A stretch of 38,396 nucleotides of DNA from Flavobacteriales bacterium (lineage in GTDB: Bacteria; Bacteroidota; Bacteroidia; Flavobacteriales; Flavobacteriaceae): NCBI GenBank assembly GCA_027066365.1, contig JAMONV010000041.1, positions 1 through 38,396 on the forward strand. Reading direction: 5' to 3'. The translations under genes and the position numbers were made by a program. Below are positions 1 through 38,242 of the stretch, piece after piece. The notes beneath the pieces are model-generated. The model was not told the DNA's origin. It saw only the letters and a list, made by a program, of their open reading frames with translations, and ran no database searches. Each line of letters starts with the position of its first letter. Position 1 is the stretch's first letter.

Positions 1-165
1 AGGGTTTCACTGACAGGAAGGAATTCACCTTTTTATCGACAGCAAACCTACATTCGTGAATCCATTAACGGAATGCTTGTACCGCTACAAAAGCATTTTT
101 CGGATAAAAAAATTCCGAAGAAATATTCGGTGCGAAACTTGTCTGTTGCTTTTACATACCAATAG
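1..165 (+). CDS. 3' end of an unidentified protein (5'-truncated by window edge)
   Basis: Frame 1 is open from the first base to a TAG at 163-165, giving 54 residues of the C-terminus of a longer protein. The peptide is rich in Tyr, Arg and Phe and ends ...YSVRNLSVAFTYQ. The last ten residues alternate polar and hydrophobic (L, V, F, Y on one face), as in the closing strand of an outer-membrane beta-barrel. That resemblance is only suggestive, because such strands usually end in Phe and this one ends in Gln. I do not recognise the family. An overlapping frame with an ATG at 56 also encodes 60 residues, but its product looks like a composition shadow. Confidence 0.4.
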   Translation, partial: RVSLTGRNSPFYRQQTYIRESINGMLVPLQKHFSDKKIPKKYSVRNLSVAFTYQ

Positions 166-204
166 GTTCGCATATACCTTGTCAAAAGCCCGCCCGAACC
201 GAAA

Positions 205-360
205 AGCAAATGCCCGCCGGCAAAATAGAAAGCCGTAGCGAGGCAAAGCGACTAACCGTCCCTTGGGAGGCGGAATACAACCGGACACGCCGAGCGCGTG
301 GAAATGCAATAACCGCTCATCGAAGCGGAAATTTACTCAAAGCCGCCCGGAGAGGCGGGG
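205..360. other. GC-rich non-coding stretch with clustered short hairpins
   Basis: This spacer between the truncated gene and the lipoprotein gene is much more GC-rich than its flanks. It contains at least four short perfect inverted repeats: TGCC/GGCA at 211-222, CACGC/GCGTG at 286-300 (loop CGAGC), CCGCT/AGCGG at 313-328 (loop CATCGA) and CCGCC/GGCGG at 343-358 (loop CGGAGA). No U-tract follows any of them, so none is a classical intrinsic terminator. It could be a structured RNA, a REP-like element or a decayed mobile-element end. No plausible protein is encoded. Confidence 0.35.
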
Positions 361-407
361 TAGCAAGTATCGGAGAATTTGTTTAATTTTAAAAATTCAA
401 GTTTAAG

Positions 408-755
408 ATGAAACAGTTAAAAAAACTTTCGATTTTGGCAATTTTTCTTATTTTAGGGATCTATGGTTGTAAACAAGAACCCGGTATTCATCAAATCAAC
501 ACATTAAAAGAAGCTATTGAGGCTTTAAATGGTAACAATGTTATTAAAATTCAACAAGAAGGAAATCAATTAGTATTTGAAGTGTCGGAAAAATCATTGG
601 ACTCTCAATGGAAAGCACATAAAGAACAGCATAACTGCGTTTCAAAGGATAAAGCGGAGTTTTATGATTGTGTAGGAACATTATTAGATGCAGGCTATTG
701 TGTAAAAATTTATAAAGATGGTGATACATATTATGGCGATATCATAGATTGCTAG
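408..755 (+). CDS. small cysteine-containing lipoprotein, unknown function
   Basis: A 115-residue protein with a lipoprotein signal peptide: basic start (MKQLKK), hydrophobic core, then LGIYGC with Cys21 as the predicted lipidated residue. The mature part has four more cysteines (77, 88, 98 and the very last residue 115), so two disulfides outside the cytoplasm are possible. I do not recognise the family. The gene stands alone between the hairpin-rich spacer and a strong terminator, so it is probably a single-gene unit. A weak -7-like box (TAATTTTA, 384-391) precedes it. The gene is distinctly AT-rich (27% GC in 541-600), which suggests recent acquisition or relaxed selection. Confidence 0.8.
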   Translation: MKQLKKLSILAIFLILGIYGCKQEPGIHQINTLKEAIEALNGNNVIKIQQEGNQLVFEVSEKSLDSQWKAHKEQHNCVSKDKAEFYDCVGTLLDAGYCVKIYKDGDTYYGDIIDC

Positions 756-775
756 GATTACAATCTTTATTTATT

Positions 776-808
776 CGGGGCACGTCCAACTGCCCCGGAT
801 TTTTTTTT
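776..808 (+). terminator. intrinsic terminator of the small lipoprotein gene
   Basis: A perfect 7-bp stem, CGGGGCA (776-782) with TGCCCCG (791-797), an 8-nt loop, then a run of nine T's from 800. It lies 20 bases after the lipoprotein stop codon and just before the promoter-like box of the next gene. Confidence 0.9.
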
Positions 809-815
809 AACTTTG
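808..815 (+). promoter_or_regulatory. -7 box (TAACTTTG) for the GLPGLI gene
   Basis: TAACTTTG matches the Bacteroidota -7 consensus TAnnTTTG and lies 22 bases before the ATG at 838. It directly follows the upstream terminator's T-run. No clear -33 TTTG is seen because that position falls inside the terminator stem. Confidence 0.5.
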
Positions 816-837
816 ATATTACAAATGCCCTCTAACA

Positions 838-1482
838 ATGAAATGGTTGAGCCTAATTTTTTTGTTATTCCTTTCTTTTCAACCGGAAGGGGATTGCTAT
901 TCCGTTTTTGAAATCAAATACCGTTATACGGACAAACGTGTGGATAAATTGCTTTTGACTTTGGCCGATAATAAAGCTTTCAACAAGGAAGCTTTGTTAA
1001 AAAAGCGCGATAAGGACTTTGTTTTGCTAACCAATGATACATGTTCGCTTTTTCAAGGCCCTGACATAGCCTACTATCGTAACCTAAAACTTCAAGAGTT
1101 TTTATACACTACCACTTGGCATGATCGTAATACCGGCGAGAACTTGCGGTTGATAATCCGAAAGGATGTTCCGGAAGCCGAATGGACAATCGTCTCCGGA
1201 TCAAAGGAAACTAATGGTTACAAGGTTTATAAAGCGCTATACCGGGACGGAAAAACCCGGGCTTGGTTTACGCCCGATATTCCTTTGGATGCAGGTCCCG
1301 AGTTTTATTCCGGATTGCCCGGTTTGATTGTGAAGTTGGTTAAGCCCAACGGCATTGAATATTCATTGGTATCCATTACGAAAAAACGTTTGCCTATTAA
1401 ACAACCCGAAGGTGACCGGTCTATGACGGAAGCGGAATACAAAAGGTTTTTGCAGTCAAATGGCGTTTTCGGATTGCATTGA
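838..1482 (+). CDS. GLPGLI family exported protein
   Basis: A 214-residue protein with a short N-terminal signal peptide (hydrophobic MKWLSLIFLLFLSF). The hallmark hexapeptide GLPGLI is at residues 159-164, inside the longer pattern FTPDIPLDAGPEFYSGLPGLI...V that defines this Bacteroidota family. The family's function is not established; members are secreted or envelope-located and are often encoded beside carboxypeptidase-regulatory-like/TonB-type outer-membrane proteins. That is so here: the next gene starts 5 bases after this stop codon, so the two are almost certainly co-transcribed. The protein stops shortly after the GLPGLI region, which is normal for the family. Confidence 0.9.
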   Translation: MKWLSLIFLLFLSFQPEGDCYSVFEIKYRYTDKRVDKLLLTLADNKAFNKEALLKKRDKDFVLLTNDTCSLFQGPDIAYYRNLKLQEFLYTTTWHDRNTGENLRLIIRKDVPEAEWTIVSGSKETNGYKVYKALYRDGKTRAWFTPDIPLDAGPEFYSGLPGLIVKLVKPNGIEYSLVSITKKRLPIKQPEGDRSMTEAEYKRFLQSNGVFGLH

Positions 1483-1487
1483 TTGTT

Positions 1488-4043
1488 ATGATCAGATTCG
1501 TCTTTTTGGGATTATTGTTTTTGGGGGTATCCCGGTATGGATTCGGGCAATCGCTTTTGGACGGGTCGGTAAAGGATGAAAACGGTACGTCCTTGCCGGG
1601 TGTTCAAGTGGTGGTGTATGATTCATTGATGCGGATAAAAGCATTTACCAAGACGGGAAATCAGGGCCATTTCAAAATACAACTTCGAAGCGGAAAATAT
1701 CTTGTCAATTTTCGAAAAATCGGATATAAACCGCAGGACACAACGGTGGTTTTGCAACATAAGTTTTCCTTGCATATTGCCTTAAAATCCTCGAATACAT
1801 CATTTGAACACTTGAAAACCGTAGTGATTAAAATAGAAAACGATCCGGTGAAGGCCTATTCGGATACGATACGGTACAATCCGGCACAATACAGGGATGG
1901 AACCGAAGTGTCTTTGGAGGATTTATTGAGAAAACTTCCGGGCATGGAGATCCGTAACGGGCAATTGTACCGGAATGGCGAACGTATCACCGAACTCCTT
2001 TTCAATGGCAAAAACGTCTTCGGACACAATCAGAAATTAGCCTTAAAAACACTTTCCTCCGACATAGTCGATTCGGTGGAGTATTACGAAAACTATAAGG
2101 ATGCTTTGGATCCGCTTCCCGGTGGTTTTTTTACGGGGAAAACTGCACTGAATATTTTGTTGAAGGAAAAAGCAAACAATCGATGGATGGGACGTTTGGA
2201 AGCGGGAGCAGGTTTGCCTTCAAAAGCGGCAACGGAAAATCATTTATTTCGCTTCGGGCAAAGAACCCATTGGTTTTTATTGGCCAATTATAACAATATA
2301 AACAAAAATGTGATGGATATCAATGATTTATATACACTTACGAATTCCATACCCGAGGGGGCAATAGAGTTTTATGCGCAAGATCGGAGAGGGCGAATCA
2401 AGAACGACCGTTTTTTGACAGCCATTCATTTTTTTGATGAGAATAAAAGAAAATACAGGATTGGCGGATTTGGTATTTACATGGGTTTTTCGGCCTTCAA
2501 CGAGTTGATTAAACAACGATATTATTCCGGCTTGGCGGTGCCCGAAACTTATCGTATTTCGCAGGAATCCGCTTCCAGAGCTTTATTTAGCGGTTGGCGA
2601 TACAAAAATAAAATAAGTCCGCATTTGACTTGGGAAAACGAGGGCTATTTGATGCATACAACGACTTCTTACTTGAAGCGAGAGCGGAGAGATGACATAT
2701 CTTCCGACCTGCAACAAAAAAACAACGATATTTCGGGGCGTATCCGAACAAGCATTCATCTGCAAAACGGTCCCTTTCTTTGGGATTTTCATATACAGTG
2801 GCAAGGAAGCGATAATCACCGGCGCGATTTTTACCCGGCACAAATGTCCTACCCCGTCCCTTTACGGATTAATAGAAATTCGGTAAATCAAACTTGGGAG
2901 GGAGGAATTGGTTTTAAGCGTCGTATTGGCAAACGAATTTTTGTTTTCGGTCAAGCTTTATTGCGTCAAAAAAACGTCAAAAGGTCAGGTTATTATGAAG
3001 GGCTTTATGAAGACATCAACCGGATGAAAAGACGCGTGTTTTTTCGTTCCGTTCGCACCGGAGGTTTGTATTTCAGGGGAAAATGGATGACCGAATCGAC
3101 TTTAGAATTGCAGTCGGTCGGCATTTTTGATGATTTCAGACCGAGAAAGGATTATACCTTTTTGTTACCGGCATGGAGCTTATCCTTCCGTCCCGACAAC
3201 GACCTGTCGATTAAATATTCAATTAAACGTAACGTGGAGATTACGGGCTTGTCGTATTTCTATCCCAATCGCTTGGTGGTAAACCTTTATGACCTCTCAT
3301 ACGGCAATACGTTATTACGGGACCTTTCCGGCGAATGGGTTCAAAAAATCCGTTTGGATTATGACAAATCCACACCCCTTTCGGACGAACTGAGTATCGG
3401 TGCGTATTATATTTCCGGACGACAAGCCGCGGTTACGGGCATTCGCAGGGATTCATTACACTGGCTCCATTACGCACTGGAAGGTAAACCTTATGAACGC
3501 TTGCAGTTTAATGTAAATTGGAGAAGAAAAATCGGTAAGTGGCATTTTCGTTATGATTATTCTCGAATCAACCACAAATTTTATCGACCGTATTTTGATC
3601 AAAACGCATGGATTTACGAAGCGGTGAGGGAACGAATCGACAGGCACAAACTGGACATAATATGGATACTACGCCCCGGCCTTAGGATTGTTACGAAAAT
3701 TTCCTTTGGCATTTCATCCGATGAATTGTCCGTTCATCGTCTTTGGATAAAAACCTTGCAAGGTGAAACGGGCCTGGATTATCGCGGAAAACATTCGGGA
3801 TTGAAGATTATATGGAAACACACGGAATTTCGGACTTTGGCCGGCCGGAATAGCTTCAACAGACCCGTGTTATTGTTATACTTGAAACGAAACAAGAAAT
3901 ATTTTTTCGTGGAAATGAAAGACGTTTTGAATCTCTATCCGGATGTGGTCGAAGAAACCGGTTATTATGAAAATTATTTCGAAACGCTTCGTTATCCTTT
4001 GTTCAAAGGTTATGTGATGGCCGGATTACGTATTCTATGGTAA
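1488..4043 (+). CDS. outer-membrane beta-barrel protein with carboxypeptidase-regulatory-like N-domain (TonB-receptor-like)
   Basis: An 851-residue protein with a signal peptide ending near GFGQ (residue 21). Residues about 22-100 form a carboxypeptidase-regulatory-like beta-sandwich (DENGTSLPGVQVVVYD, FRKIGYKPQDTTVVL). About 125-210 resembles a plug domain (VSLEDLLRKLPGMEI, NGKNVFG). The rest is a long run of amphipathic, aromatic-rich beta-strands ending ...GYVMAGLRILW, an outer-membrane barrel ending in an aromatic residue. I see no TonB box, so energised transport is unproven. An in-frame TTG at 1479 overlaps the preceding stop, but ATG 1488 begins the signal peptide directly and is preferred. 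Substrate is unknown. With the GLPGLI gene it forms a pairing known in Flavobacteriia. Confidence 0.82.
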   Translation: MIRFVFLGLLFLGVSRYGFGQSLLDGSVKDENGTSLPGVQVVVYDSLMRIKAFTKTGNQGHFKIQLRSGKYLVNFRKIGYKPQDTTVVLQHKFSLHIALKSSNTSFEHLKTVVIKIENDPVKAYSDTIRYNPAQYRDGTEVSLEDLLRKLPGMEIRNGQLYRNGERITELLFNGKNVFGHNQKLALKTLSSDIVDSVEYYENYKDALDPLPGGFFTGKTALNILLKEKANNRWMGRLEAGAGLPSKAATENHLFRFGQRTHWFLLANYNNINKNVMDINDLYTLTNSIPEGAIEFYAQDRRGRIKNDRFLTAIHFFDENKRKYRIGGFGIYMGFSAFNELIKQRYYSGLAVPETYRISQESASRALFSGWRYKNKISPHLTWENEGYLMHTTTSYLKRERRDDISSDLQQKNNDISGRIRTSIHLQNGPFLWDFHIQWQGSDNHRRDFYPAQMSYPVPLRINRNSVNQTWEGGIGFKRRIGKRIFVFGQALLRQKNVKRSGYYEGLYEDINRMKRRVFFRSVRTGGLYFRGKWMTESTLELQSVGIFDDFRPRKDYTFLLPAWSLSFRPDNDLSIKYSIKRNVEITGLSYFYPNRLVVNLYDLSYGNTLLRDLSGEWVQKIRLDYDKSTPLSDELSIGAYYISGRQAAVTGIRRDSLHWLHYALEGKPYERLQFNVNWRRKIGKWHFRYDYSRINHKFYRPYFDQNAWIYEAVRERIDRHKLDIIWILRPGLRIVTKISFGISSDELSVHRLWIKTLQGETGLDYRGKHSGLKIIWKHTEFRTLAGRNSFNRPVLLLYLKRNKKYFFVEMKDVLNLYPDVVEETGYYENYFETLRYPLFKGYVMAGLRILW

Positions 4044-4366
4044 ATTAACCCGGTTTCAATTTGGACGAAGGAACCGGTTCGCCGGAAAAATGTAGATTTT
4101 TTGTGACCTCCTTACACAAAGAACAATTTACCATTATCCCACGGTGAAGCTATTTGTTTTGTTAAACCGTTGAATCGCGGGGTAAAGCCCCGTCCCGCCC
4201 GGGATTTTCTTTGAAGTGCGAAGAATGAAACCGGAAAATCCGGTGCGGGATTGAACCGTGGAATCGTTAAATCGAATATTGGATTCGCCGCGCTTTAACC
4301 TTTCTTCTTTTCCTTTAATATTAAGAGCGTTGAATCGCTCAACGAATATTTAACGAATAACCTCTT
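4044..4366. other. gene-free spacer with multiple palindromes
   Basis: A 323-base stretch between the convergent ends of the outer-membrane gene and ruvC with no plausible ORF. It holds three clean inverted repeats: CGGGG/CCCCG at 4178-4192 (loop TAAAG), ACCGGA/TCCGGT at 4230-4244 (loop AAA) and CGTTGA/TCAACG at 4328-4344 (loop ATCGC). Variants of the phrase GTTGAATCG or GTGGAATCG recur three times (about 4169, 4257 and 4329). No T-run follows these stems, so they are not standard terminators, though they may still act as transcription barriers between the convergent genes. The + strand changes from G-rich to C-rich across this spacer. Confidence 0.5.
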
Positions 4367-4939
4367 CTATTCCACTCTTCCGGGATTTTTCTTAATAAAA
4401 GCCTTCCAATCCGAATATTTTCCCGCAATTCCCGGCCTACTACGATTAAGCTGATGGCATATGGCCACGGCCAACGCATCCGTAGCATCAAAAAAATCCG
4501 GCAACGAACCGATATGCATCAATTGTTTAATCATTCCCGCCACTTGCTCTTTGGAAGCATTGCCGTTTCCCGTAATCGCCATTTTCACCTTCTTGGGACT
4601 GTATTCCACCACGGGAATATCGCGCGACAATGCTGCCGCCATCACCACACCTTGTGCACGTCCCAATTTCAGCATAGATTGCACGTTCTTTCCGTAAAAC
4701 GGTGCTTCCAAAGCGATTTCGTCGGGCAAAAATTGTTCGATGAGCGCAATACTTCTTTCAAAAATCTTTTTCAACCTCAAGGCATGAGAATCATATTTAT
4801 TCAAAAGCAACCTATCCATCATCAACAATTCGGTCTTTTTTTCGCGAACACGAATAATACCGAAACCCGTCACAACCGTTCCCGGATCAACGCCCATAAT
4901 AATCAAATCGTCCACACTTTTTTTGTTATTTTGCGCCAT
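4367..4939 (-). CDS. ruvC: Holliday junction resolvase RuvC
   Basis: A 190-residue RuvC endonuclease, which cuts four-way recombination junctions together with the RuvAB branch-migration complex. All four metal-binding acidic residues are present: Asp18 in GVDPG, Glu78 in IALEAPF, and Asp151 and Asp154 in FFDATDALAVAICH. The length is normal for the family, with a C-terminal extension of about 20 residues. The gene is divergent from the membrane-protein gene, with only 11 bases between the two start codons, so its promoter must lie inside the neighbour's 5' end. A match, TATATTTA with an upstream TTTG on the minus strand, is at 4967-5000. No other ruv gene is nearby. Confidence 0.97.
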   Translation of the reverse strand: MAQNNKKSVDDLIIMGVDPGTVVTGFGIIRVREKKTELLMMDRLLLNKYDSHALRLKKIFERSIALIEQFLPDEIALEAPFYGKNVQSMLKLGRAQGVVMAAALSRDIPVVEYSPKKVKMAITGNGNASKEQVAGMIKQLMHIGSLPDFFDATDALAVAICHQLNRSRPGIAGKYSDWKAFIKKNPGRVE

Positions 4940-4950
4940 AATTCCGGAAC

Positions 4951-5811
4951 ATGAACAAATTTCGTGTAAATATAATCAAAATAATTCCCTTTTTATCAAA
5001 AGCAGGACGAACTCTCCTTCCGTTTATCAGCATTTTGTGGTTAATATTTTATTTTCAAAAACATATTCATCAAATCCCGCATATTTTTCATCAATTTGTT
5101 TTTCATCCCGGCATTTGGATTATAAGTATTCTATCCATGACCGGCAATTGGTATTTTCGCGTGTTCAAATGGCAAACCGCTTTAAAACCGGTTTATCGCA
5201 TTTCCTTTAAAACCGCTTTTTGTCAGCAATTAAAAACATTTGCGCTATCGCTTTGGACCCCCGTCAATAGCGGTGAATTTATCGGCAAACCCATGTTTTT
5301 CCAACACAATAAACGTTTCGTAGCAAACGCCGTAGCATGGGAACAATTTTCCCAAATGAGCTCCACAACACTATGGGGAATTTTCGGCGTTATCTTCATT
5401 TTTCATCAAAACGCTATCGTTTGGTTTTTACCGGCTATCCCTGTATTCGTTTTTTACAATAATTACGCCCGGTTAGGAAAATTTGCTTCGCTTTTGCTTT
5501 TATCGTCCCTACGTTATTTGTTTTTCGGCGGAGCTTTTGCCTGGTTATTGCATTTATTTTCATCAGTCGATATTTCTCACTTGATATCCGCAATCACGGT
5601 TTATTACTTCGGTATTTCGATATTTCCACTTCTGTCTTCATCCGGTTTGGCCGCTAGACTTATCACCGGAATATGGATTTTTGAACGACTCGGAATTTCA
5701 AGTGAATTGACTGCATCCATTATCTTTTGGTTATGGATCTGGAATAGCCTTATTCCGGCTGTTGCCGGTTTGATCTTACACTTCAAAAAACCCGCCTGTG
5801 GAAATCATTGA
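4951..5811 (+). CDS. multi-spanning membrane protein, possible AglD/lysylphosphatidylglycerol-synthase-TM-like
   Basis: A 286-residue, strongly hydrophobic protein with about seven or eight membrane segments. The arrangement (FHPGIWIISILSMTGNWYFRVFKWQ early, then ALSLWTPVNSGEFIGKPMF and several late helices) resembles the lysylphosphatidylglycerol-synthase transmembrane (AglD/UPF0104) family. Proteins of that family are often paired with glycosyltransferases and suspected of lipid or glycolipid flipping. This assignment is from overall pattern only. The stop codon overlaps the start of the glycosyltransferase gene by 14 bases, which indicates translational coupling and a joint role in envelope glycan or lipid assembly. 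Confidence 0.65.
   Translation: MNKFRVNIIKIIPFLSKAGRTLLPFISILWLIFYFQKHIHQIPHIFHQFVFHPGIWIISILSMTGNWYFRVFKWQTALKPVYRISFKTAFCQQLKTFALSLWTPVNSGEFIGKPMFFQHNKRFVANAVAWEQFSQMSSTTLWGIFGVIFIFHQNAIVWFLPAIPVFVFYNNYARLGKFASLLLLSSLRYLFFGGAFAWLLHLFSSVDISHLISAITVYYFGISIFPLLSSSGLAARLITGIWIFERLGISSELTASIIFWLWIWNSLIPAVAGLILHFKKPACGNH
4967..5000 (-). promoter_or_regulatory. candidate ruvC promoter inside the divergent gene
   Basis: On the minus strand TTTG (5000-4997) is followed after 22 bases by TATATTTA (4974-4967), close to the Bacteroidota pattern TTTG-N17..23-TAnnTTTG. Its last base is 27 bases upstream of the ruvC ATG. It would lie within the first codons of the divergent membrane-protein gene. Confidence 0.35.
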
Positions 5812-6886
5812 ACGGTTTGGAATTTTTTGGATTACTTCAATAGGCTTGTATTCAATTTGGCTTTATGCATTAAGCCGTTGCAAAAAAACTTTTCGTCCCT
5901 CCGAGACTGTGAAAAAATTCGACGGAATTTCACTGGTCGTCCCTTTCAAAAACGAAGCCAAACGAATCTCCGATTTACTGCAAAGCCTAAACCGCACATG
6001 GCCCCACCGCTTCCCCGGCGAAGTCATTTTTATCGACGATTATTCCACCGATAATTCCGCAAAAATCATCAAAAAAACAAAAAAAAAATTCCCTTTTCAA
6101 CTGCTTGAAATTAAATCAACCGAACCGGTAGCCAAACGAACCGCTTTGGAAACCGCAATACGGCATGCCAATTTTCCTTGGATTTTAACCTTGGATGCCG
6201 ACGTCTCGATTCCCGGCGGATATTTTGAAGCGCTAAACGATTTGCTTTCATCGGCACACGACATCGTTATGATACTCGGTCCCGTAAAGTTATACGGACA
6301 AAATAATTTTCTTTTCCGCCTGCAACAATTGGAAAACCGTTTTCTTCAGGCCCTGACCCGTTTTTCTGCCGATTGCGATTCGCCTTGGTTAGCCAATGGC
6401 GCTCATTTGATCTTCCGGAAAAAAAATTTCTTCAGAGTAAACGGTTATGATAATTTGCCCGATCTTCCGGGTGGCGACGATATTTTCCTGCTCGAAAAAT
6501 TTAATCGTAATTTCCCCGGGAAAATCCGTTACTGGGCACGACCAAAATTCGCCGTAAGAGTCCAAGCAGCCGAAAATGTAAATGAATTTATCCGGCAACA
6601 TACCCGCTGGGCTGTCAAAACAAAAAAATTAAAAAACCGGAAATTGCTGGCCTTCAGCCTCCTACAGTCAGCAATCTTCTTAGGTTTTTGGATTTTGATT
6701 GCGCATCCCGGATTTTGGATAACGGGAAATATCATTTGGTTCGCCGGCCAATATTATTTTATCAAACAATACGAACAAAATTCGCCGAAATTAATACCGG
6801 CCGTTTTCATTCATTTGGTTTATCCGTTTTTTTACGTCTGGATTTTAATCCAAAGCTTATTCTTCAGCTCAACTCGTTGGCGTTGA
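5798..6886 (+). CDS. membrane-anchored GT2 family glycosyltransferase
   Basis: A 362-residue family 2 glycosyltransferase, GTG start. The GT-A catalytic landmarks occur in order: VVPFKNEA (47-54), the nucleotide-sugar Asp pair in FIDDYST (80-81), the DAD metal-binding motif (133-135), GGDD (225-228) and a QxxRW-type motif, QHTRW (267-271), found in processive or polymer-type GT2 enzymes. One membrane segment is at the N-terminus (about 8-26) and two or three at the C-terminus (about 285-355), so the catalytic domain should sit on the cytoplasmic face of the inner membrane. The acceptor is unknown. It is coupled to the preceding membrane-protein gene; its last 18 bases overlap the convergent ppx-like gene. 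Confidence 0.9.
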   Translation: MEIIERFGIFWITSIGLYSIWLYALSRCKKTFRPSETVKKFDGISLVVPFKNEAKRISDLLQSLNRTWPHRFPGEVIFIDDYSTDNSAKIIKKTKKKFPFQLLEIKSTEPVAKRTALETAIRHANFPWILTLDADVSIPGGYFEALNDLLSSAHDIVMILGPVKLYGQNNFLFRLQQLENRFLQALTRFSADCDSPWLANGAHLIFRKKNFFRVNGYDNLPDLPGGDDIFLLEKFNRNFPGKIRYWARPKFAVRVQAAENVNEFIRQHTRWAVKTKKLKNRKLLAFSLLQSAIFLGFWILIAHPGFWITGNIIWFAGQYYFIKQYEQNSPKLIPAVFIHLVYPFFYVWILIQSLFFSSTRWR

Positions 6887-17379: not shown

Positions 17380-19521
17380 ATGAAAGGCATTCACCCAAAG
17401 GTTTTGGAAGATTTGGAATTTGACCGAATCAAAAACTTGGCCGCCGAAAGAACTATCACCCGTGAAGCGGCGCAAAAAATCCGGGCTATGCTTCCCGCAA
17501 CGGAAAAATCAATCGTCATCGACGAACTCCGCCTGACCGACGAATGGTTGCGTAGCATCCAAACCGTCAATCCCGTTCCGCTCTCCGAATTTGAAACCTA
17601 TGGAAATGCATTGGAAAAAATCCGTGTTGAAAATTATTTCCTCGAACCGTCCACTCTCTTAGCCATCGCACATGCTTTGGAAATATTGAATACCTTGGAA
17701 AAATTTTTCAAGCAATTCAAAACCGACTTTCCCCTTCTGAATGATTATTTTCAAGCCTTAAACCGGCATAAGGAAATCGAACCCGCCATAAGGAAAATTG
17801 TCGGGCAAGACGGGCAAGTCAAAGATAATGCATCAGGGCTTCTAGCGGAAATTCGTTCACGCATTAAAGATTTAAAACAAAAACGCCTAACCATATTCAA
17901 CCGCATCAAAGAAAAAGCCACCCGGGCCGGTTGGCTGGACGATATCGGCGAAAGTGTGACAGGCGACCGACCCGTGCTTGCCGTAAAATCCGCATACCGC
18001 AAAAAAATAAAAGGTCACTTTGCCGGCAGTTCACGATCGGGCAACACCGTTTTCATCGAACCGGCCGAGAGTGTTCGCATTACCGAAGAAATTCAATCCG
18101 CCCGGGCGGACGAACAATCCGAGATCATCCGTATTCTCAAGGAAATAACCGTTTTCCTGCAACCTTACCAAGCGGATTTGTCGGCATACGAAGCGTATTT
18201 GATTCACATGGACACAGTGCGTGCCAAAGCATTGCTTGCCGCCGAAATGAACGCCGTGCTTCCCGAAATTCCCAATGAGATGAATTGGCGGATCAAACAG
18301 GCTTATCACCCTTTATTGCTTCTGGAAAACCGAAAAAAAAACCTGCCCGTCATTCCGCAAGACATTCATTTGAATCATAAACAACGCATTATGGTTATTT
18401 CCGGGCCCAATGCCGGCGGAAAAAGCATTACGCTCAAAACCGCCGGATTGCTACAAATTATGCTGCAATCAGGCTTTCTTGTCCCCGTTCGACCCGAAAG
18501 TTCCATGCCTTTTTTCAGTAAAATCCTCACCGACATCGGCGACAATCAATCCATCGAAAACCAACTTTCGACCTACAGCTACCGCCTCAAAAACATGCGC
18601 TTATTCTTGCGTCTGGCCGACCGGCAAACCTTCTTTCTAATTGACGAATTCGGCACCGGATCCGATCCTGAATTGGGCGGAAACCTCGCCGAAGTTTTTT
18701 TAGAAGAATTTCAAAAATCCGGAGCTTTCGGCATCATTACCACTCATTACAATAATCTAAAATTGCTTGCCGAAAAACTTCCCGGCGTATTGAATGCACA
18801 CATGGAATTCGACCTCAAAACCATGTCGCCCACTTTTCATTTGATTACCGGGCAACCCGGAAGTTCATACACCTTTGAAGTAGCCGCCAAAATGGGAATT
18901 CCTCGGTCGTTAATCAACCGGGCCAAGCAAAAAACCGGCCGGCAAAAAGTTAAATTCGACCGCACCCTTGCCGAAATGCAACACTATCAAGCTAAACTCC
19001 GAAAAGCATTGAAAGAAAATGAAAACCTCAAACAACAATGGATCGAATTGCAAGAAAAATTGAAGGAAAAAGAATTCGATTTGTTAAAAAAATTGGATGC
19101 TTTTCGGCAACTTTATGAAACGGATAAACATATCGGCGAAGCCGGAAAACGAATCTTGAATATTTTTGAAGAATACAAGAAAAACCGAAACAAAAAGAAA
19201 TTATGGCGGCAAATCGACAAATGGCTCGATAAAGAAATCATCAAAGAACCCGCCGAAAAAATCAAATCGAAAAACCAAATCGAGCAATTACGTGAAGAAG
19301 TTCGCAAAACACTGAAAGAAGAAAACGTCATGGAACAATTGGAGCAAATGGAAATCCGGCGCATGCCGTATGTCCCCAAACCGGGTGATCGCGTAAGGGT
19401 TTCCGGGTCAAGCGCTACGGCAACTTTGGAATCCATTCAAGGCAACAAAGCCGTTTTAAACTACGGAAAATTCAAAGCCACCGTTCCGGTCAAAAATTTG
19501 GAAACAGTCGTCAGGAAATAA
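17380..19521 (+). CDS. mutS2: MutS2 family DNA-binding ATPase, lacking the Smr domain
   Basis: A 713-residue MutS homologue of the MutS2 branch. There is no mismatch-recognition domain. The lever/core region covers about 1-310, followed by the ABC-type ATPase: Walker A GPNAGGKS (342-349), the DIGDNQSIENQLSTYS signature (385-400), Walker B FLIDEFGTGSDP (419-430) and TTHY. A long charged coiled coil (about 480-650) leads to a KOW-like beta barrel (about 665-713). The protein ends there; the C-terminal Smr nuclease domain of many MutS2 proteins is absent, as in several Bacteroidota. Possible roles are suppression of recombination or rescue of collided ribosomes. A nuclease role is unlikely without Smr. 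Confidence 0.93.
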   Translation: MKGIHPKVLEDLEFDRIKNLAAERTITREAAQKIRAMLPATEKSIVIDELRLTDEWLRSIQTVNPVPLSEFETYGNALEKIRVENYFLEPSTLLAIAHALEILNTLEKFFKQFKTDFPLLNDYFQALNRHKEIEPAIRKIVGQDGQVKDNASGLLAEIRSRIKDLKQKRLTIFNRIKEKATRAGWLDDIGESVTGDRPVLAVKSAYRKKIKGHFAGSSRSGNTVFIEPAESVRITEEIQSARADEQSEIIRILKEITVFLQPYQADLSAYEAYLIHMDTVRAKALLAAEMNAVLPEIPNEMNWRIKQAYHPLLLLENRKKNLPVIPQDIHLNHKQRIMVISGPNAGGKSITLKTAGLLQIMLQSGFLVPVRPESSMPFFSKILTDIGDNQSIENQLSTYSYRLKNMRLFLRLADRQTFFLIDEFGTGSDPELGGNLAEVFLEEFQKSGAFGIITTHYNNLKLLAEKLPGVLNAHMEFDLKTMSPTFHLITGQPGSSYTFEVAAKMGIPRSLINRAKQKTGRQKVKFDRTLAEMQHYQAKLRKALKENENLKQQWIELQEKLKEKEFDLLKKLDAFRQLYETDKHIGEAGKRILNIFEEYKKNRNKKKLWRQIDKWLDKEIIKEPAEKIKSKNQIEQLREEVRKTLKEENVMEQLEQMEIRRMPYVPKPGDRVRVSGSSATATLESIQGNKAVLNYGKFKATVPVKNLETVVRK

Positions 19522-19557
19522 GTATTTTCGCTAACTTGCAAAAACAATCGAAAATCA

Positions 19558-20445
19558 ATGGAAACCCGTTTACAAAACCAAGGAAAAGATCGCTTGGAAA
19601 ATGTTTATCCCATTCCTAAACCCATTCTGTGGGGAGCTAAATTCTTACAAAGCATCTCCGATAAATGGGCGGCGGCATATTCGCGCTATTTCTTTAAAAA
19701 ACCCGTTGAGCCTCCCGTAAAAGATTATGAAAAAGAATGGCGAAATAAAGCGGAAATTTCCCGCTTGAAAATACCTGTCTTCGGAAAAATACTAACCGTT
19801 TACCGTTGGGGTAAAGGAACAAAAAAAGTATTGATTCTGCACGGTTGGTCGGGACGAGCCACACAATTGACACATCTTATTGAAACTTTCTTGAAACATC
19901 ATTACACGGTATATGCTTTTGACGCTCCTTCGCACGGATTGTCTCCCGGACAAACCACCAACATGGTGGAATATATCGAAAGCATCGTGGCAATCGACCA
20001 ATCCTACGGTCCTTTCGATATTATCGTAGGGCACAGCATGGGCGGCATATCGGCGCTGAACGCCATAGCACGTAAAAATGTCAAAACCAAAAAACTGGTC
20101 ACCGTCGGCATACCCGATTCCATCGAAAAAATATTCTATCAATTCGCCCAAGTCATGGGATTGAAACCCGCCATTGCCGAATTGAACATCCGGTATATGA
20201 AAGAAAAACTCCACACCGATATCAAACATTTGGCCGGGAGCTACAATGCCGAAAAAATCCGTATCCCCGTGCTGCAAATTCATGATAAAACAGACAAAGA
20301 AGTACCTTTTTCCGAAGCCGAAAACCTCTCGAAACACTGGCGCAAAGGAGAATTTTACGTTACCGAAGGATGGGGACACAGGCGTATTTTGCGCAACCCC
20401 GAAGTCCTTCAAAAAATTATCGATTTTGCCGAAGAAAACAACTGA
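19558..20445 (+). CDS. alpha/beta hydrolase
   Basis: A 295-residue soluble hydrolase. The oxyanion strand-loop is LILHGWSGRA (92-101), the nucleophile elbow is VGHSMGG with Ser160, and a late HDKTDKEVPF supplies the acid, followed by GWGHRRI with the catalytic His. The N-terminal ~75 residues (an amphipathic, basic segment with PIPKPILWGAKFLQSISDKWA) are not part of the fold and may associate with membrane. The substrate cannot be predicted. It lies 36 bases after mutS2, and trmB follows 3 bases after the stop codon, so it is probably co-transcribed with trmB. Confidence 0.88.
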   Translation: METRLQNQGKDRLENVYPIPKPILWGAKFLQSISDKWAAAYSRYFFKKPVEPPVKDYEKEWRNKAEISRLKIPVFGKILTVYRWGKGTKKVLILHGWSGRATQLTHLIETFLKHHYTVYAFDAPSHGLSPGQTTNMVEYIESIVAIDQSYGPFDIIVGHSMGGISALNAIARKNVKTKKLVTVGIPDSIEKIFYQFAQVMGLKPAIAELNIRYMKEKLHTDIKHLAGSYNAEKIRIPVLQIHDKTDKEVPFSEAENLSKHWRKGEFYVTEGWGHRRILRNPEVLQKIIDFAEENN

Positions 20446-20448
20446 CTC

Positions 20449-21132
20449 ATGGGACGAAAAAACAAGCTGCAACGATTTGCCGAAAACGCTACTTTTCCTC
20501 ATTTCTTTCAACCCGGACGAAACGAACTCATTCAAAATAAATTCCCGCTCAAAGGTCGCTGGAACCGGGATTTCTTCCAAAATGAAAACCCCATCGTGCT
20601 GGAACTCGGTTGTGGCAAAGGCGATTACACCGTTGCCTTAGCCGAACATTTTCCGGATAAAAACTTCATCGGTATCGACATCAAAGGTGCAAGAATGTGG
20701 CGGGGCGCCAAAACCGCATTGGAAAAAAAATTATCAAACGTAGCCTTCCTCCGCATGCAAATCGAATTAATTAACCATGCCTTCGCCCCGAACGAAGTAA
20801 GCGAAATCTGGATTACTTTCCCCGATCCGCAAACCAAATTCAAACGCACCAAACATCGATTGACCAATCCCAAATTCCTCGAACTATACCGGCAAATCAT
20901 CAAACCGAAAAGTATTATTCACCTCAAAACCGACAGCGAATTTCTCTACGGATACACACTGGGCATACTCGAAGCTTCCAATGAAGAAATCCTATATGCG
21001 CATCACGATATTTATCGCAATCCTCATAGCCCCGAATGGGCACGAAAAATCCAAACCTTCTATGAAAAAATGTGGATCGCCCAAGGAAAAGCCATCACTT
21101 ATTTACAATTTCGTCTGACGCCGCTTTCCTGA
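20449..21132 (+). CDS. trmB: tRNA (guanine46-N7)-methyltransferase
   Basis: A 227-residue Rossmann-fold methyltransferase that makes m7G46 in the tRNA variable loop. The SAM motif I is LELGCGKGDY (51-60), motif II is FIGIDIKGARMW, and the TrmB hallmark ITFPDPQTKFKRTKHRL replaces the more common FPDPW. The length is typical. The 3' end overlaps the convergent exosortase gene by 38 bases, so the two mRNAs share a complementary tail. Confidence 0.95.
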   Translation: MGRKNKLQRFAENATFPHFFQPGRNELIQNKFPLKGRWNRDFFQNENPIVLELGCGKGDYTVALAEHFPDKNFIGIDIKGARMWRGAKTALEKKLSNVAFLRMQIELINHAFAPNEVSEIWITFPDPQTKFKRTKHRLTNPKFLELYRQIIKPKSIIHLKTDSEFLYGYTLGILEASNEEILYAHHDIYRNPHSPEWARKIQTFYEKMWIAQGKAITYLQFRLTPLS

Positions 21133-21655
21133 CATAAACGAACCAAAGTAATACCGCCAACGCATAAATGGAAGCCGGAAACAACACCCTGTGCGCAAAA
21201 TCAAACCATCCGGAATGTGAAATATAAATCAAACCCAAAATATAAATCCTCAATAAATTCGCCAGAAATATAACCACAGACGAAAACAAAGCAAAAGCAA
21301 GCCTCCTTCTCCAACGCACCGGAACCGATAAAACAAAAGCCAAACTCAATATAATCACACTCATCCCGTTACACCCTTCAACCACTTTCACCACCCACCG
21401 GTTGCCCGACATAAAAATTCCTATCGAACGTCCGTCTTCCATTACTTGACTATAAGTTTCATAACCCGACCAATGATATAATAAATCCACCCCGGCCGCA
21501 ACACTTTTCGTAATAAAATCGGGACTCCCTTGCTTCATCAAAAATTCATAAATCAAAAAAAATATAAGATAAAAAATAAAAAATTTCAGCACAATTCCCG
21601 TAGCTATTTTAATTTTATCGCCTTTTATAACATTTTCATATTCATCTTGCGGCAT
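21095..21655 (-). CDS. xrtF: exosortase family protein, XrtF-like
   Basis: A 186-residue polytopic membrane protein. The exosortase triad is visible: Cys95 in VVEGCNGMSVI, Arg136 in LANLLRIY and His155 in WFDFAHRVLFP. The small size, the VVEGCNG context and the last membrane segment followed by basic residues fit XrtF, the exosortase of Flavobacteriia, which is expected to cleave C-terminal sorting tails of exported proteins. ATG 21655 is chosen over an upstream start at 21709, which would invade the divergent lipoprotein gene. No XrtF-associated gene follows, because trmB overlaps its end. No PEP-CTERM-like substrate is visible in this window. Confidence 0.88.
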   Translation of the reverse strand: MPQDEYENVIKGDKIKIATGIVLKFFIFYLIFFLIYEFLMKQGSPDFITKSVAAGVDLLYHWSGYETYSQVMEDGRSIGIFMSGNRWVVKVVEGCNGMSVIILSLAFVLSVPVRWRRRLAFALFSSVVIFLANLLRIYILGLIYISHSGWFDFAHRVLFPASIYALAVLLWFVYVRKAASDEIVNK

Positions 21656-21663
21656 AATATTTG

Positions 21664-21671
21664 TATCTTTG
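21664..21671 (+). promoter_or_regulatory. -7 box (TATCTTTG) for the lipoprotein gene at 21698
   Basis: A perfect TAnnTTTG match, 26 bases before the start codon, in the 42-base spacer between the divergent exosortase and lipoprotein genes. Confidence 0.5.
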
Positions 21672-21697
21672 TAAATTAAAAAATCGACCCTAAAGTT

Positions 21698-22234
21698 ATG
21701 CAAAAACATTTAATCTTTTTTGCCGGATTTTTATTATTTATTTCCTGCTCCGATAAATTGGATTTCAAGCAAGCCGAAGATTTTCGTGCCGAACCCGTCC
21801 TCAGCGTAGATTTGTTCTATACTCGGTTGAACGGCAATGATTTTTATATCAACGACACTATTCCCATCATGGAAATCAGAGATACGGTTCCCTTTACCGT
21901 TTTCAAAGAAAAACCCGTGAAAGACGGACTGCAAAAAATCATGCTATACGTCCAAGTGCACAACGAATTACCCGCCGCATTTCAAGGAAAAATAAAATTT
22001 CTGAAAAACGGTCAACCCATCGATTCCGTTTATGCCGATATTCAAAGCGCAACAACGAATCAAGCTTTCGACCGTGAATATGTCTTTACCATCATCAAAG
22101 ACAGCGTCCCCGAAATCGTGCTCACTACCGACTTGGCCATTCATTTTCAACGAACGGACAGCATCGACATCAGCCATGACAATCGCATGCTGAAAGCACA
22201 AAGCCGCGGTGATTTTTATGTTGTTATTCAATAA
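21698..22234 (+). CDS. lipoprotein of unknown function
   Basis: A 178-residue lipoprotein: signal segment MQKHLIFFAGFLLFISC with Cys17. The mature part is rich in beta-strand patterns (LDFKQAEDFRAEPVLSVDLFYTRL; PVKDGLQKIMLYVQVHNELP), with a repeated Asp-rich, Thr/Ser edge-strand style, and ends RGDFYVVIQ. I do not recognise a family; it could be a beta-sandwich partner of an outer-membrane barrel. The next gene, a DUF5723-like outer-membrane protein, starts 15 bases after this stop codon, so the two are co-transcribed and may form a pair. It is divergent from the exosortase gene. Confidence 0.8.
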   Translation: MQKHLIFFAGFLLFISCSDKLDFKQAEDFRAEPVLSVDLFYTRLNGNDFYINDTIPIMEIRDTVPFTVFKEKPVKDGLQKIMLYVQVHNELPAAFQGKIKFLKNGQPIDSVYADIQSATTNQAFDREYVFTIIKDSVPEIVLTTDLAIHFQRTDSIDISHDNRMLKAQSRGDFYVVIQ

Positions 22235-26975: not shown

Positions 26976-28079
26976 ATGGAAAGGGAAACCGTCCTTTGGC
27001 TTAGCCCGGAAGCACTTGATCACAATTTCCGATTTTTCAAATCGCGTGCCGGAAAAACCATTCGCATTCTGGTTAACCTCAAAGCCGACGCCTACGGTCA
27101 TGGCGCCGTTTTAATCGGAAAATTTTTACAGCACAAAACCGATTATTTTTCAGTAGCATATGCCAACGAGGGATTTCAATTACGAAATGCCGGTATTTCC
27201 ATCCCCGTTTTGGTCTTTAATCCTCCGACCGATCCGTGCCGGTCGTTTTTTGAACATCGATTGGAACCGGTTTTTTATCATACGGAACAAATTCGTATTT
27301 ACAAACAAATTCTGGTGCAACTTGGAATAAACGCCTATCCCGTTCATCTGAAATTGGATAGCGGCATGCACCGAAGCGGTTTGCCTGCCGCGCAACTGGA
27401 TATGGCTATAAAGGAATTAAAAAATCCGGTTTTTAAGCTTGTTTCGGTTTATTCCCATTTGGCCGCCGCCGACGATCCCGCCGAAGATTCGTTCACACGC
27501 AAGCAAATAAGCTTATTCGACCGGCTTTCCGCTAGGGTTAAACAAGATTTTCCCCGTGTCATCCGGCATCTGGCCAACAGTGCCGCCGCCATCCGCTTTC
27601 CCGAAGCGATATACGACATGATTCGCCCCGGCATTGGAATCTACGGATACACCACCTATGAAAAAGCGAAAAACCTACTGAAACCCGTAGCAAGCCTTCA
27701 ATCCGCAATCACGCAAATTCGCGAAGTGGACGCCGGCGAAAGCGTTGGATATAACCGGCGTTTTGTAGCTACCCGTAAAACACGCATCGCCCTGATTCCC
27801 ACCGGATACGGCGACGGTTATTTCCGCCTTTTCGGAAATGGCAAAGCCTATGTTACAATCGAAGGAAAACCCGCCCCCACAATTGGTACGGTTAGTATGG
27901 ACATGCTCACCGTGGACATTACACATATTCCCCAAGCCCGAATAGGTTCCTTAGTATGCATTTTCGGAGAAAAACCGTCCGTATACGATCTGGCACAAAT
28001 CGCCCGAACCATCCCTTATGAAATCACCACCGCACTGCATGAAAGAGTTTTAAGAAAATGGAACGATAATTTTCCTTAA
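26976..28079 (+). CDS. alr: alanine racemase
   Basis: A 367-residue PLP enzyme supplying D-alanine for peptidoglycan. The PLP-binding Lys36 is in NLKADAYGHGA, the catalytic Tyr259 is in ESVGYNRRF, and LDSGMHRSG, HLANSAA, RPGIGIYGY and GTVSMDMLTVD are also conserved. The family's C-terminal motif ends TTALHERVLRKW. The open frame reaches back to a TTG at 26964 next to the tdk stop, but the ATG at 26976 gives the normal N-terminus. No murF fusion is present, although Bacteroidota often carry one. Confidence 0.95.
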   Translation: MERETVLWLSPEALDHNFRFFKSRAGKTIRILVNLKADAYGHGAVLIGKFLQHKTDYFSVAYANEGFQLRNAGISIPVLVFNPPTDPCRSFFEHRLEPVFYHTEQIRIYKQILVQLGINAYPVHLKLDSGMHRSGLPAAQLDMAIKELKNPVFKLVSVYSHLAAADDPAEDSFTRKQISLFDRLSARVKQDFPRVIRHLANSAAAIRFPEAIYDMIRPGIGIYGYTTYEKAKNLLKPVASLQSAITQIREVDAGESVGYNRRFVATRKTRIALIPTGYGDGYFRLFGNGKAYVTIEGKPAPTIGTVSMDMLTVDITHIPQARIGSLVCIFGEKPSVYDLAQIARTIPYEITTALHERVLRKWNDNFP

Positions 28080-35680: not shown

Positions 35681-38242
35681 ATGAAGACCTCCGTCAATGA
35701 AAAGAAAATTTATAGCTATGAGGAAGTATCGAATGCCACCAAAGAATACTTTAATGGTGACGAACTGGCCGCCAATATTTGGATTTCCAAATATGCCCTA
35801 CGCAATAAACAAGGTGATTTCTTGGAACTCACGCCCGAGGATATGCACAAACGAATGGCCAAAGAATTTGCACGAATCGAAGACAAATACCACACCGAAG
35901 AAAAACCCGAAGGATTATCCGAATACGGAAAACTTCGTAAAAAATTGACGGAAAGAAAAATATTCCAGTATTTCGACCGCTTTAAATACGTCATACCCCA
36001 AGGAAGCATCATGTTCGGGCTTGGCAATCGCGAAGTGATTTCTTCGCTCTCCAACTGCGTGGTTGTTCCTTCGGTATATGATTCATACGGCGGCATAATG
36101 TATACCGACCAACAATTGGTACAACTGTTCAAACGCCGTTGCGGCGTGGGATTCGACCTGTCGAAACTGCGTCCCAAAGACACCGCCGTAGCCAATGCCG
36201 CACGCACAACCACCGGAGCGGTCTCCTTCATGCACCGCTTTTCATTCACCACACGCGAGGTGGCCCAAAACGGACGACGCGGCGCCTTAATGCTCACCAT
36301 GGATATCGCTCATCCCGATATCGAAGACTTTATCACCGTAAAACAAGACCTAACCGCCGTCACGGGCGCCAATATCTCGGTGCGCCTCTCGGACGAATTC
36401 ATGAAAGCCGTCGTCGAAAACAAAAACTATACCTTACGTTGGCCCATCGATAGCCCCAATCCCAAAATAACCAAAGAAATCAATGCCCGGGAATTGTGGA
36501 ACAAAATTATCGCCTCCGCCCATCGATCCGCAGAACCCGGACTTATTTTCTGGGACAGACAACATTACTATTCCACCTCAAGCATATACCCGGGATTTGA
36601 AAACGAAAGCACCAACCCTTGTAGTGAAATTGCCATGCAAGGAGGCGATTCGTGCCGCTTGATAGCCATAAACTTATATAATTTCGTAAAAAATCCCTTC
36701 ACCCCAAAAGCCAAATTCGACTACGAAAAATTCTATAAAACCGTCTATGAAACCCAACGACTGATGGACGATTTGGTGGATTTGGAACTGGAACATATAG
36801 AACGAATTCTAGCCAAAATCGATTCCGATCCCGAGCCCGATCATATCAAACGTATTGAACGGGAAACTTGGGAATTACTCTACGAAACAGGTAAACGTGC
36901 CCGCAGAACCGGGTTAGGATTTACCGCATTAGCCGACGCCATTGCCGCACTCGGATTAAAATTCGACAGCGACGAAGCCCTCGAACAAGTGGAAAATATC
37001 ATGCGCATGAAGCTCCGCGCCGAATTTGACAGCAGCATCGACATGGCCATCGAACGCGGAACCTTCCGGGATTTCGACCCCGAAATCGAACAAAAATCCG
37101 AATTTGTCAGAATGCTTAAAACGGAATTCCCCGAAATCCATGACCGCATGATGAAATACGGACGGCGTAATATTTCCATTAGCACCGTAGCACCCACCGG
37201 AAGCTTGAGTATTTTAGCCCAAACTTCCTCCGGAATCGAACCCGTATTTATGCTTTCCTATAAACGCCGGCGAAAAGTTAATCCCAATGATCCCAATGCC
37301 AAAGTGGATTTTATTGACGATACCGGCGATGCATTCGAAGAATTTACCGTTTACCACCATCGCCTGAAAGATTGGATGAATGCCTCCGGTGAAACCGATA
37401 TCAAAAAATCCCCCTATCACGGCGCCACCGCCCCGGAAATCGACTGGCGAAAACGCATAAAAATACAAGCCGTAGTTCAAAAATATACCACACATTCCAT
37501 CAGCTCCACCATCAACCTACCCGAAGATACAACCGTGGATCTGGTTGGAAAAATATACGTGGAAGCCTGGAAACAAGGATTGAAAGGCATAACCGTTTAT
37601 CGCGAAGGTTCAAGAAGCGGAATCCTGATCAAAGACGATAAAAAGAAAAAGAAAAAAACCCCCAAAATCAAAACCGAAACCGTCGATTTTCAAGTCTTTC
37701 CTTCAAAACGCCCCAAAAAATTGGAAGCAGACGTCATCCGCTTTTTCAATAAAAAAGAAGAATGGATTGCCGTGGTGGGAAAAATCGATAACCGCCCTTA
37801 TGAAATTTTCACGGGAAAAGCCGAAGATGTCTTCAGCCTACCCGACTACGTTACCCAAGCATGGGTCATCAAAAACAAAGATGAAAACGGAAAATCCCGT
37901 TACGACCTACAATTCGTAGACAAACAAGGCTACAAAATCACCATCGAAGGACTTTCTCGCTCCTTTGACCCCGAATATTGGAATTATGCCAAACTAATAT
38001 CCGGCGTTTTGCGACGCGGAATGCCCATCGACGAAGTGGTAAAACTGGTCGAAGGCCTTAATTTAAGCGATGACTTCATCAATACTTGGAAAAACGGAGT
38101 GGCACGCGCTTTAAAAAAATACATTCCCAACGGAACCGCTCCCAAAGACAAAAAATGCCCCCAATGCGGCGACCCCGAGGGCCTGATTTATGAAGAAGGT
38201 TGTCTCGTATGCAAAAGTTGCGGATACAGCAAGTGCGGATAA
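35681..38242 (+). CDS. nrdJ: adenosylcobalamin-dependent (class II) ribonucleotide reductase
   Basis: An 853-residue class II RNR converting ribonucleotides to deoxyribonucleotides with a cobalamin-generated thiyl radical, no oxygen needed. The redox Cys126 is in SNCVVVP, the radical Cys314 lies in NPCSE with Asn312 and Glu316, and Cys325 is the partner of Cys126. The 11-residue spacing between 314 and 325 matches the known arrangement in class II enzymes. A Lys-rich linker (about 653-667) leads to a C-terminal domain ending in a zinc-ribbon-like CPQC..C..C..C.YSKC motif that probably delivers electrons. The cell must obtain vitamin B12. No class I genes are seen nearby. Confidence 0.96.
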   Translation: MKTSVNEKKIYSYEEVSNATKEYFNGDELAANIWISKYALRNKQGDFLELTPEDMHKRMAKEFARIEDKYHTEEKPEGLSEYGKLRKKLTERKIFQYFDRFKYVIPQGSIMFGLGNREVISSLSNCVVVPSVYDSYGGIMYTDQQLVQLFKRRCGVGFDLSKLRPKDTAVANAARTTTGAVSFMHRFSFTTREVAQNGRRGALMLTMDIAHPDIEDFITVKQDLTAVTGANISVRLSDEFMKAVVENKNYTLRWPIDSPNPKITKEINARELWNKIIASAHRSAEPGLIFWDRQHYYSTSSIYPGFENESTNPCSEIAMQGGDSCRLIAINLYNFVKNPFTPKAKFDYEKFYKTVYETQRLMDDLVDLELEHIERILAKIDSDPEPDHIKRIERETWELLYETGKRARRTGLGFTALADAIAALGLKFDSDEALEQVENIMRMKLRAEFDSSIDMAIERGTFRDFDPEIEQKSEFVRMLKTEFPEIHDRMMKYGRRNISISTVAPTGSLSILAQTSSGIEPVFMLSYKRRRKVNPNDPNAKVDFIDDTGDAFEEFTVYHHRLKDWMNASGETDIKKSPYHGATAPEIDWRKRIKIQAVVQKYTTHSISSTINLPEDTTVDLVGKIYVEAWKQGLKGITVYREGSRSGILIKDDKKKKKKTPKIKTETVDFQVFPSKRPKKLEADVIRFFNKKEEWIAVVGKIDNRPYEIFTGKAEDVFSLPDYVTQAWVIKNKDENGKSRYDLQFVDKQGYKITIEGLSRSFDPEYWNYAKLISGVLRRGMPIDEVVKLVEGLNLSDDFINTWKNGVARALKKYIPNGTAPKDKKCPQCGDPEGLIYEEGCLVCKSCGYSKCG

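Follow-up and report, generated by a model that had tools for sequence, protein, structure and literature searches.

The window analyzed here is an entire contig (C41, JAMONV010000041.1; 38,396 nt) of the Flavobacteriales bacterium draft genome GCA_027066365.1, which we label G000. Near 4.3 kb its plus strand changes from G rich to C rich, between a small group of surface-protein genes at the left end (a lipoprotein-GLPGLI-outer-membrane cassette) and ruvC. The feature is real yet ordinary, one guanine-cytosine (GC) skew edge of many in a much-rearranged draft genome. We interpret it, with a probability of roughly 0.7, as the chromosomal rearrangement edge of a relocated surface-protein cassette and not as the possible replication terminus that an earlier note on this DNA had suggested at 4.0 to 4.4 kb. 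Most likely, the edge is the boundary of a movable cassette. The direct observations are the edge itself, the repeats, another location of the cassette in a sister species of the same genus (G002), the variable neighbor of ruvC, and a dif-like site elsewhere in the genome.

The draft totals 2,028,532 bases and consists of 64 unordered contigs. Our genome sample consists of stretches from all 64 contigs (1,163,228 bases including the window, 57% of the genome) and yielded 983 mechanically picked open reading frames (ORFs) of at least 100 amino acids. Comparisons were made with a same-genus set of nine genomes and a wider set of 40 relatives, both of which include G000.

The skew switch near 4.3 kb

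Skew is always given for the plus strand, and the skew at third codon positions is the measure for each ORF. When GC skew is computed in 1-kb windows, those that begin no later than 3501 give values from +0.02 to +0.15 and those from 4001 onward are negative, with a sole exception to the right of the edge (19001-20000, +0.002). A change-point scan of the window places the best single change point at 4287 (z = 9.87), and none of 2,000 shuffles of 1-kb blocks reached this value (99% quantile, 7.14). The position falls inside the 4000-4400 interval where the switch had been placed by the earlier note, whose five 60-base hand counts of G and C all proved exact on recount. The edge is abrupt, within a 323-bp spacer, and the composition change is real.

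To the right of 4.3 kb, all 32 ORFs taken as genes, on both strands (4367-38242), have negative third-position skew, from -0.14 to -0.65 and pooled at -0.393 (standard error [SE], 0.014; z = -28). As right-hand ORFs of either strand are all negative, transcription direction does not explain the switch, which agrees with what had been argued from the hand counts. The description of the left side as G rich stands for the sequence as a whole, as whole-sequence skew does change sign across the edge, but not for third positions, where the pooled value is +0.068 (SE, 0.044; z = 1.5; 513 G or C sites in three ORFs). The two large plus-strand genes on this side have third-position skews of +0.07 and +0.06, and their codon positions 1 and 2 add to the G excess (+0.08 and +0.13). 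Significant third-position skew of opposite sign on the two sides was looked for at this edge and not found; since the left value is indistinguishable from zero, skew is lost at the edge, and a reversal is not demonstrated. With 7 kb taken on each side, the contrast is 0.44, which lies between the 95% (0.42) and 99% (0.53) quantiles of 736 inter-ORF gaps in the genome sample. The contrast is strong, not unique.

Skew edges in the rest of the genome

Two skew switches are expected of an unrearranged chromosome with a single origin and a single terminus. Segmenting third-position skew into two states (penalty of 12; 61 stretches with at least three ORFs) gives 43 in the sampled part of the genome, 19 from G rich to C rich and 24 in the opposite direction, and a softer penalty gives 64. 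Both sides reach a z of at least 3 with opposite signs in 23 of the 43 (9 G-to-C and 14 C-to-G switches). Among these nine is a switch on contig C33; the C41 edge is not among them (left z = 1.5), and a three-state model labels it "none to C-rich." The genome is heavily rearranged, and because 43 switches were found where two are expected, a single one says little about the terminus.

A dif-like site on another contig

For the dif search, we used a general consensus. At three mismatches or fewer, it matches 10 places in G000 and its reversed control matches 6, so the yield is hardly above the control. C41 has no match at this threshold. A dif inside the window was rejected as a candidate: the best match there has four mismatches (26292) and six others have five. 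The search near 4.0 to 4.4 kb that had been suggested as a check turned up only a five-mismatch match at 4018, where the outer-membrane gene ends.

A dif-like site is found instead at 31382-31409 of C33, near the G-to-C switch of that contig. It was first picked by eye, as its spacer and right arm resemble those of the Escherichia coli dif. Third-position skew on C33 goes from +0.35 (19 ORFs) to -0.15 (9 ORFs) at 27.0 to 27.3 kb, both sides being significant, and cumulative skew peaks at 27629, roughly 4 kb away from the dif-like site. The main support for this site as dif comes from the search of relatives and not from the pick by eye. Its 25-base core, with up to three mismatches allowed, is present as exactly one copy in 18 of the 40 genomes, including G000, and is absent from the other 22; the reversed control gives a single match across the 40 genomes together. 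The core is present in six of the eight other genomes of the genus. In G000, G004, and G007, the three genomes inspected, relatives of a gene of about 361 amino acids, presumably permease-like from our reading of it, start at most about 100 bp away from the site.

Another relative, G022, is a single contig, for which we took 22 samples of 20 kb. Skew is negative from 0 to 0.8 Mb (except +0.01 at 0.4 Mb), positive from 1.0 to 2.8 Mb (except +0.02, -0.04, and -0.01 at 2.0, 2.2, and 2.4 Mb), and negative again from 2.99 to 3.9 Mb, which puts a G-to-C switch between 2.82 and 2.99 Mb. G022 has its dif-like site at 2.9985 Mb and its ruvC far away at 1.51 Mb. The surroundings of the site in G004 and G007 are too weakly skewed for a sharp switch to be seen, so these two genomes back the site only by its single copy and the kept neighbor gene. 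Taken together, the motif appears to behave as dif, with its putative location in the window's genome on C33, and the replication terminus is likely on another piece of the chromosome than C41. Evidence for a terminus from a lone skew switch in a draft contig is weak, and the dif-like motif is the better terminus marker for this genus.

The junction repeat and gene order next to ruvC

The spacer between the cassette and ruvC is largely occupied by R190, an interspersed repeat (4161-4345, plus strand) that holds the change point at 4287. A dispersed repeat at the skew edge was one of the features looked for, and R190 is such a repeat: it has 26 matches in its own genome, itself included, and 33 in G002; the remaining seven genomes of the same-genus set have none, so that two of nine, G000 counted, carry it. 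Six copies lie less than 100 bp from a contig end. Cores of 41 to 66 bp are 95 to 98% identical to other contigs, and the 11 other copies of more than 100 bp are 78 to 86% identical to the window copy. R190 folds little better than its shuffles (z = -1.41). A second interspersed repeat, R205, lies on the far side of the cassette, so that repeats flank it.

Gene order at this place differs among close relatives. The first gene on the C-rich side is ruvC (4367-4939, minus strand; Pfam RuvC, 143.9 bits against a cutoff of 22.2; TIGR00228, 133.7 against 100.65). It is adjoined by a flippase-like gene (4951-5811, plus strand), presumptively so named by us from the sequence and without an NCBIfam match, and a glycosyltransferase gene (5798-6886, plus strand) that glycosyltransferase models match below their cutoffs. 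These two genes adjoin ruvC in all six same-genus genomes where ruvC was found; it was not found in two of the eight other genomes of the genus. On the 3' side, the neighbors of ruvC differ among the five same-genus genomes with at least 2 kb there, and none of the ORFs tested beyond the ruvC 3' end in these five matches the cassette. The sixth genome, G008, stops 857 bp past ruvC and is not among the five compared. G002 keeps the three genes of the cassette together and in the same order (47% identity over 106 amino acids, 55%, and 36%), about 3.3 kb from relatives of three genes of contig C56, and has its ruvC (79% identical to that of the window) on a separate contig of that draft. The edge thus coincides with a synteny break among close relatives. 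With the cassette at another place in G002 and the changing neighbors of ruvC, gene order at the junction is labile. The local inversion or island edge that the earlier note had offered as the alternative to a terminus gains support from the junction repeat, the repeat at the left end, the cassette elsewhere in G002, and the changing ruvC neighbors.

Origin of the edge

In the explanation that we favor, the C-richness to the right of the edge would be that expected of a long-standing lagging strand; as the skew there is independent of gene direction, replication is its probable cause. An insertion, or an inversion of which this is one end, would have brought the cassette next to ruvC, too recently for its third positions to have acquired the local C-rich bias. 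The joining may have been caused by recombination between repeat copies, with R190, which sits exactly at the junction, as a candidate agent. Because the contig ends at base 1, insertion and inversion are inseparable. GC skew has been used to infer inverted genes (PMC6220195), a use disputed in PMC9098844. The C41 edge resembles the local skew breaks left by inversions and insertions in that a short stretch departs from the replichore skew regardless of gene direction; unlike them, its left side is near zero and not reversed, and the other edge is outside the contig.

Several points weigh against this explanation. The second edge lies beyond the contig, which leaves both insertion and inversion undemonstrated, and the left arm consists of three ORFs only; genes of this kind might be weakly skewed by nature. 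The comparison of ruvC neighbors used mechanically picked ORFs, the first of which are doubtful in G003 and G006, and the search with these ORFs covered only the 57% of the genome that was sampled. As for the repeat, 3 of the 13 gaps that hold R190 are skew switches, against 34 of 679 overall (P = 0.023, C41 included), but R190 as a general cause of skew breaks was rejected, as without C41 the count is 2 of 12 and not significant (P = 0.11). Restricting the test to gaps of at least 150 bp gives P = 0.08 if C41 is included and P = 0.24 if it is left out. A looser measure gives a sign change at 5 of the 13 scorable R190 copies, C41 included, against 9.2% of the 736 gaps. The association between R190 and skew switches is suggestive at most.

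That such surface-protein genes are weakly or atypically skewed anywhere, with no recent rearrangement at this place, is unlikely. The small left arm leaves room for this idea, and similar genes elsewhere are modestly skewed, such as the outer-membrane gene of C45 (-0.10 at third positions). The G002 cassette, however, has skews of +0.12 to +0.27, matching its surroundings, and the outer-membrane gene of C3 has +0.22, so that such genes can carry skew; moreover, the uniformly negative ORFs to the right are of many kinds. We regard as quite unlikely an assembly misjoin at R190, which would mean that the cassette and ruvC are not true chromosomal neighbors. An interspersed repeat with nearly identical short cores on other contigs, six copies of which lie close to contig ends, is where such an error could be expected, but the 78 to 86% identity of the longer copies makes assembly confusion less likely, and both sides of the junction have same-genus relatives (79% for ruvC in G002 and 36 to 55% for the cassette).

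The terminus itself, with replication forks meeting at about 4.0 to 4.4 kb and the plus strand turning there from leading to lagging, is extremely unlikely. The sign of the switch fits and the contrast is strong, and C41 could lie anywhere relative to C33 on the chromosome. A terminus with dif at the skew shift-point, as described in PMC3025954, shares this sign; unlike it, C41 lacks a dif-like site at three mismatches or fewer, and the site is on C33, beside a switch that is significant on both sides. The terminus proposal also has to contend with the single-copy core in 18 of 40 genomes and its kept neighboring gene, with a left side that has no significant third-position skew, with the 19 G-to-C switches in the sample, dozens of switches in all, and with the distance between ruvC and the dif-like site in G022. 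The relocated cassette remains the reading that we prefer.

The cassette and its leader repeat

The window opens with the C-terminal part of a gene truncated by the contig boundary (1-165; 54 codons and the stop) and the stretch that follows it (1-190, plus strand). Positions 1-395 are 94% identical to C4:3718-4112, where this sequence precedes the next copy of R205; on C4, the copy of the truncated gene's end closes a 234-amino-acid ORF without a Pfam match. R205 (191-395, plus strand) ends shortly before an ORF start. It has six copies in G000: this one, two on C4 (61-262 and 3902-4112), two on C45 (5547-5751 and 4099-4301, both minus strand), and one on C3 (11937-12140, minus strand). Mean column identity over the six is 85%, in an alignment that includes a variable tail, and seven aligned copies show little variation. 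Downstream of every copy, at 9 to 17 nt, a small ORF of secreted or lipoprotein-like type has its start codon. Four of these offsets (9 to 17 nt) are direct measurements; one C45 copy (C45a) and the C3 copy were initially scored as overlaps and give about 10 nt if the shorter repeat end (C45a) or a later ATG (C3) is used. By eye, the first ORFs headed by R205 look different from copy to copy.

Within the genus, R205 occurs in three of the nine genomes, G000 included, and R205-like leaders, some of them partial, also stand ahead of such ORFs in G001 and G004; for one partial copy (L298), the best ORF is 229 nt distant. In a search of 199 genomes of the family for R205 outside the genus, with four candidates scored per genome and four of the six own copies recovered, it was found in one genome, namely, G000 itself. 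R205 as a structured RNA was rejected, since the window copy folds no better than its shuffles (z = -0.43). An Rfam search of window positions 1-6000, up to an E value of 1, gave only a subthreshold small nuclear RNA match, outside R205.

The first cassette gene codes for a small lipoprotein-like protein of 115 amino acids without a Pfam match (408-755, plus strand). It is followed by a GLPGLI family protein (838-1482, plus strand; TIGR01200, 86.1 bits against a cutoff of 50; Pfam Porph_ging, 41.8 against 25) and an 854-amino-acid outer-membrane-type protein (1479-4043, plus strand) with an N-terminal carboxypeptidase-regulatory-like domain (PF13620, 42.9 bits against 32.3; PF13715, 37.7 against 32.2), which the SusC/RagA model matches far below its cutoff. 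With both proteins matching above cutoff, the C41 pair is like the pairs of GLPGLI and carboxypeptidase-regulatory-like proteins of Bacteroidota. Similar GLPGLI and outer-membrane pairs are found at C3 and C45, with the C45 outer-membrane gene matching the domain below the cutoff only, and GLPGLI-type genes (Porph_ging above the cutoff) lie downstream of R205 at C41, C3, and C45. What sets the C41 pair apart from this known kind is the small lipoprotein-like ORF ahead of it, together with the repeated leader of 205 bp, and the cassette was not encountered in the parts of the GLPGLI literature covered by our search. At the C4 locus of R205, none of the five neighboring ORFs tested has a Pfam match.

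It is conceivable, yet doubtful, that the R205 leader heads the cassettes of a shuffling system of this genus, in which it would be both an expression site and a recombination anchor, with R190 helping cassettes to move and thereby producing many of the skew breaks. Each cassette would have a different first gene, for a small secreted protein, followed by GLPGLI and outer-membrane genes or by other secreted-protein-like genes. If true, cassette shuffling would link repeats, surface-protein variation, and genome rearrangement within one lineage.

The first 6.1 kb of C4 (C4:1-6100) contains two successive R205-headed modules with small secreted-protein-like genes that match nothing in Pfam; skew is weak along this stretch, and the beginning of the second module is the part 94% identical to window positions 1-395.

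Other genes of the window

Among the minus-strand genes, the strongest third-position skew (-0.59) belongs to 21095-21709, which we take from reading alone to resemble an XrtN-type exosortase. Close to the right end, the window codes for an adenosylcobalamin-dependent ribonucleotide reductase (35681-38242, plus strand; TIGR02504, 495.6 bits against a cutoff of 399.95).

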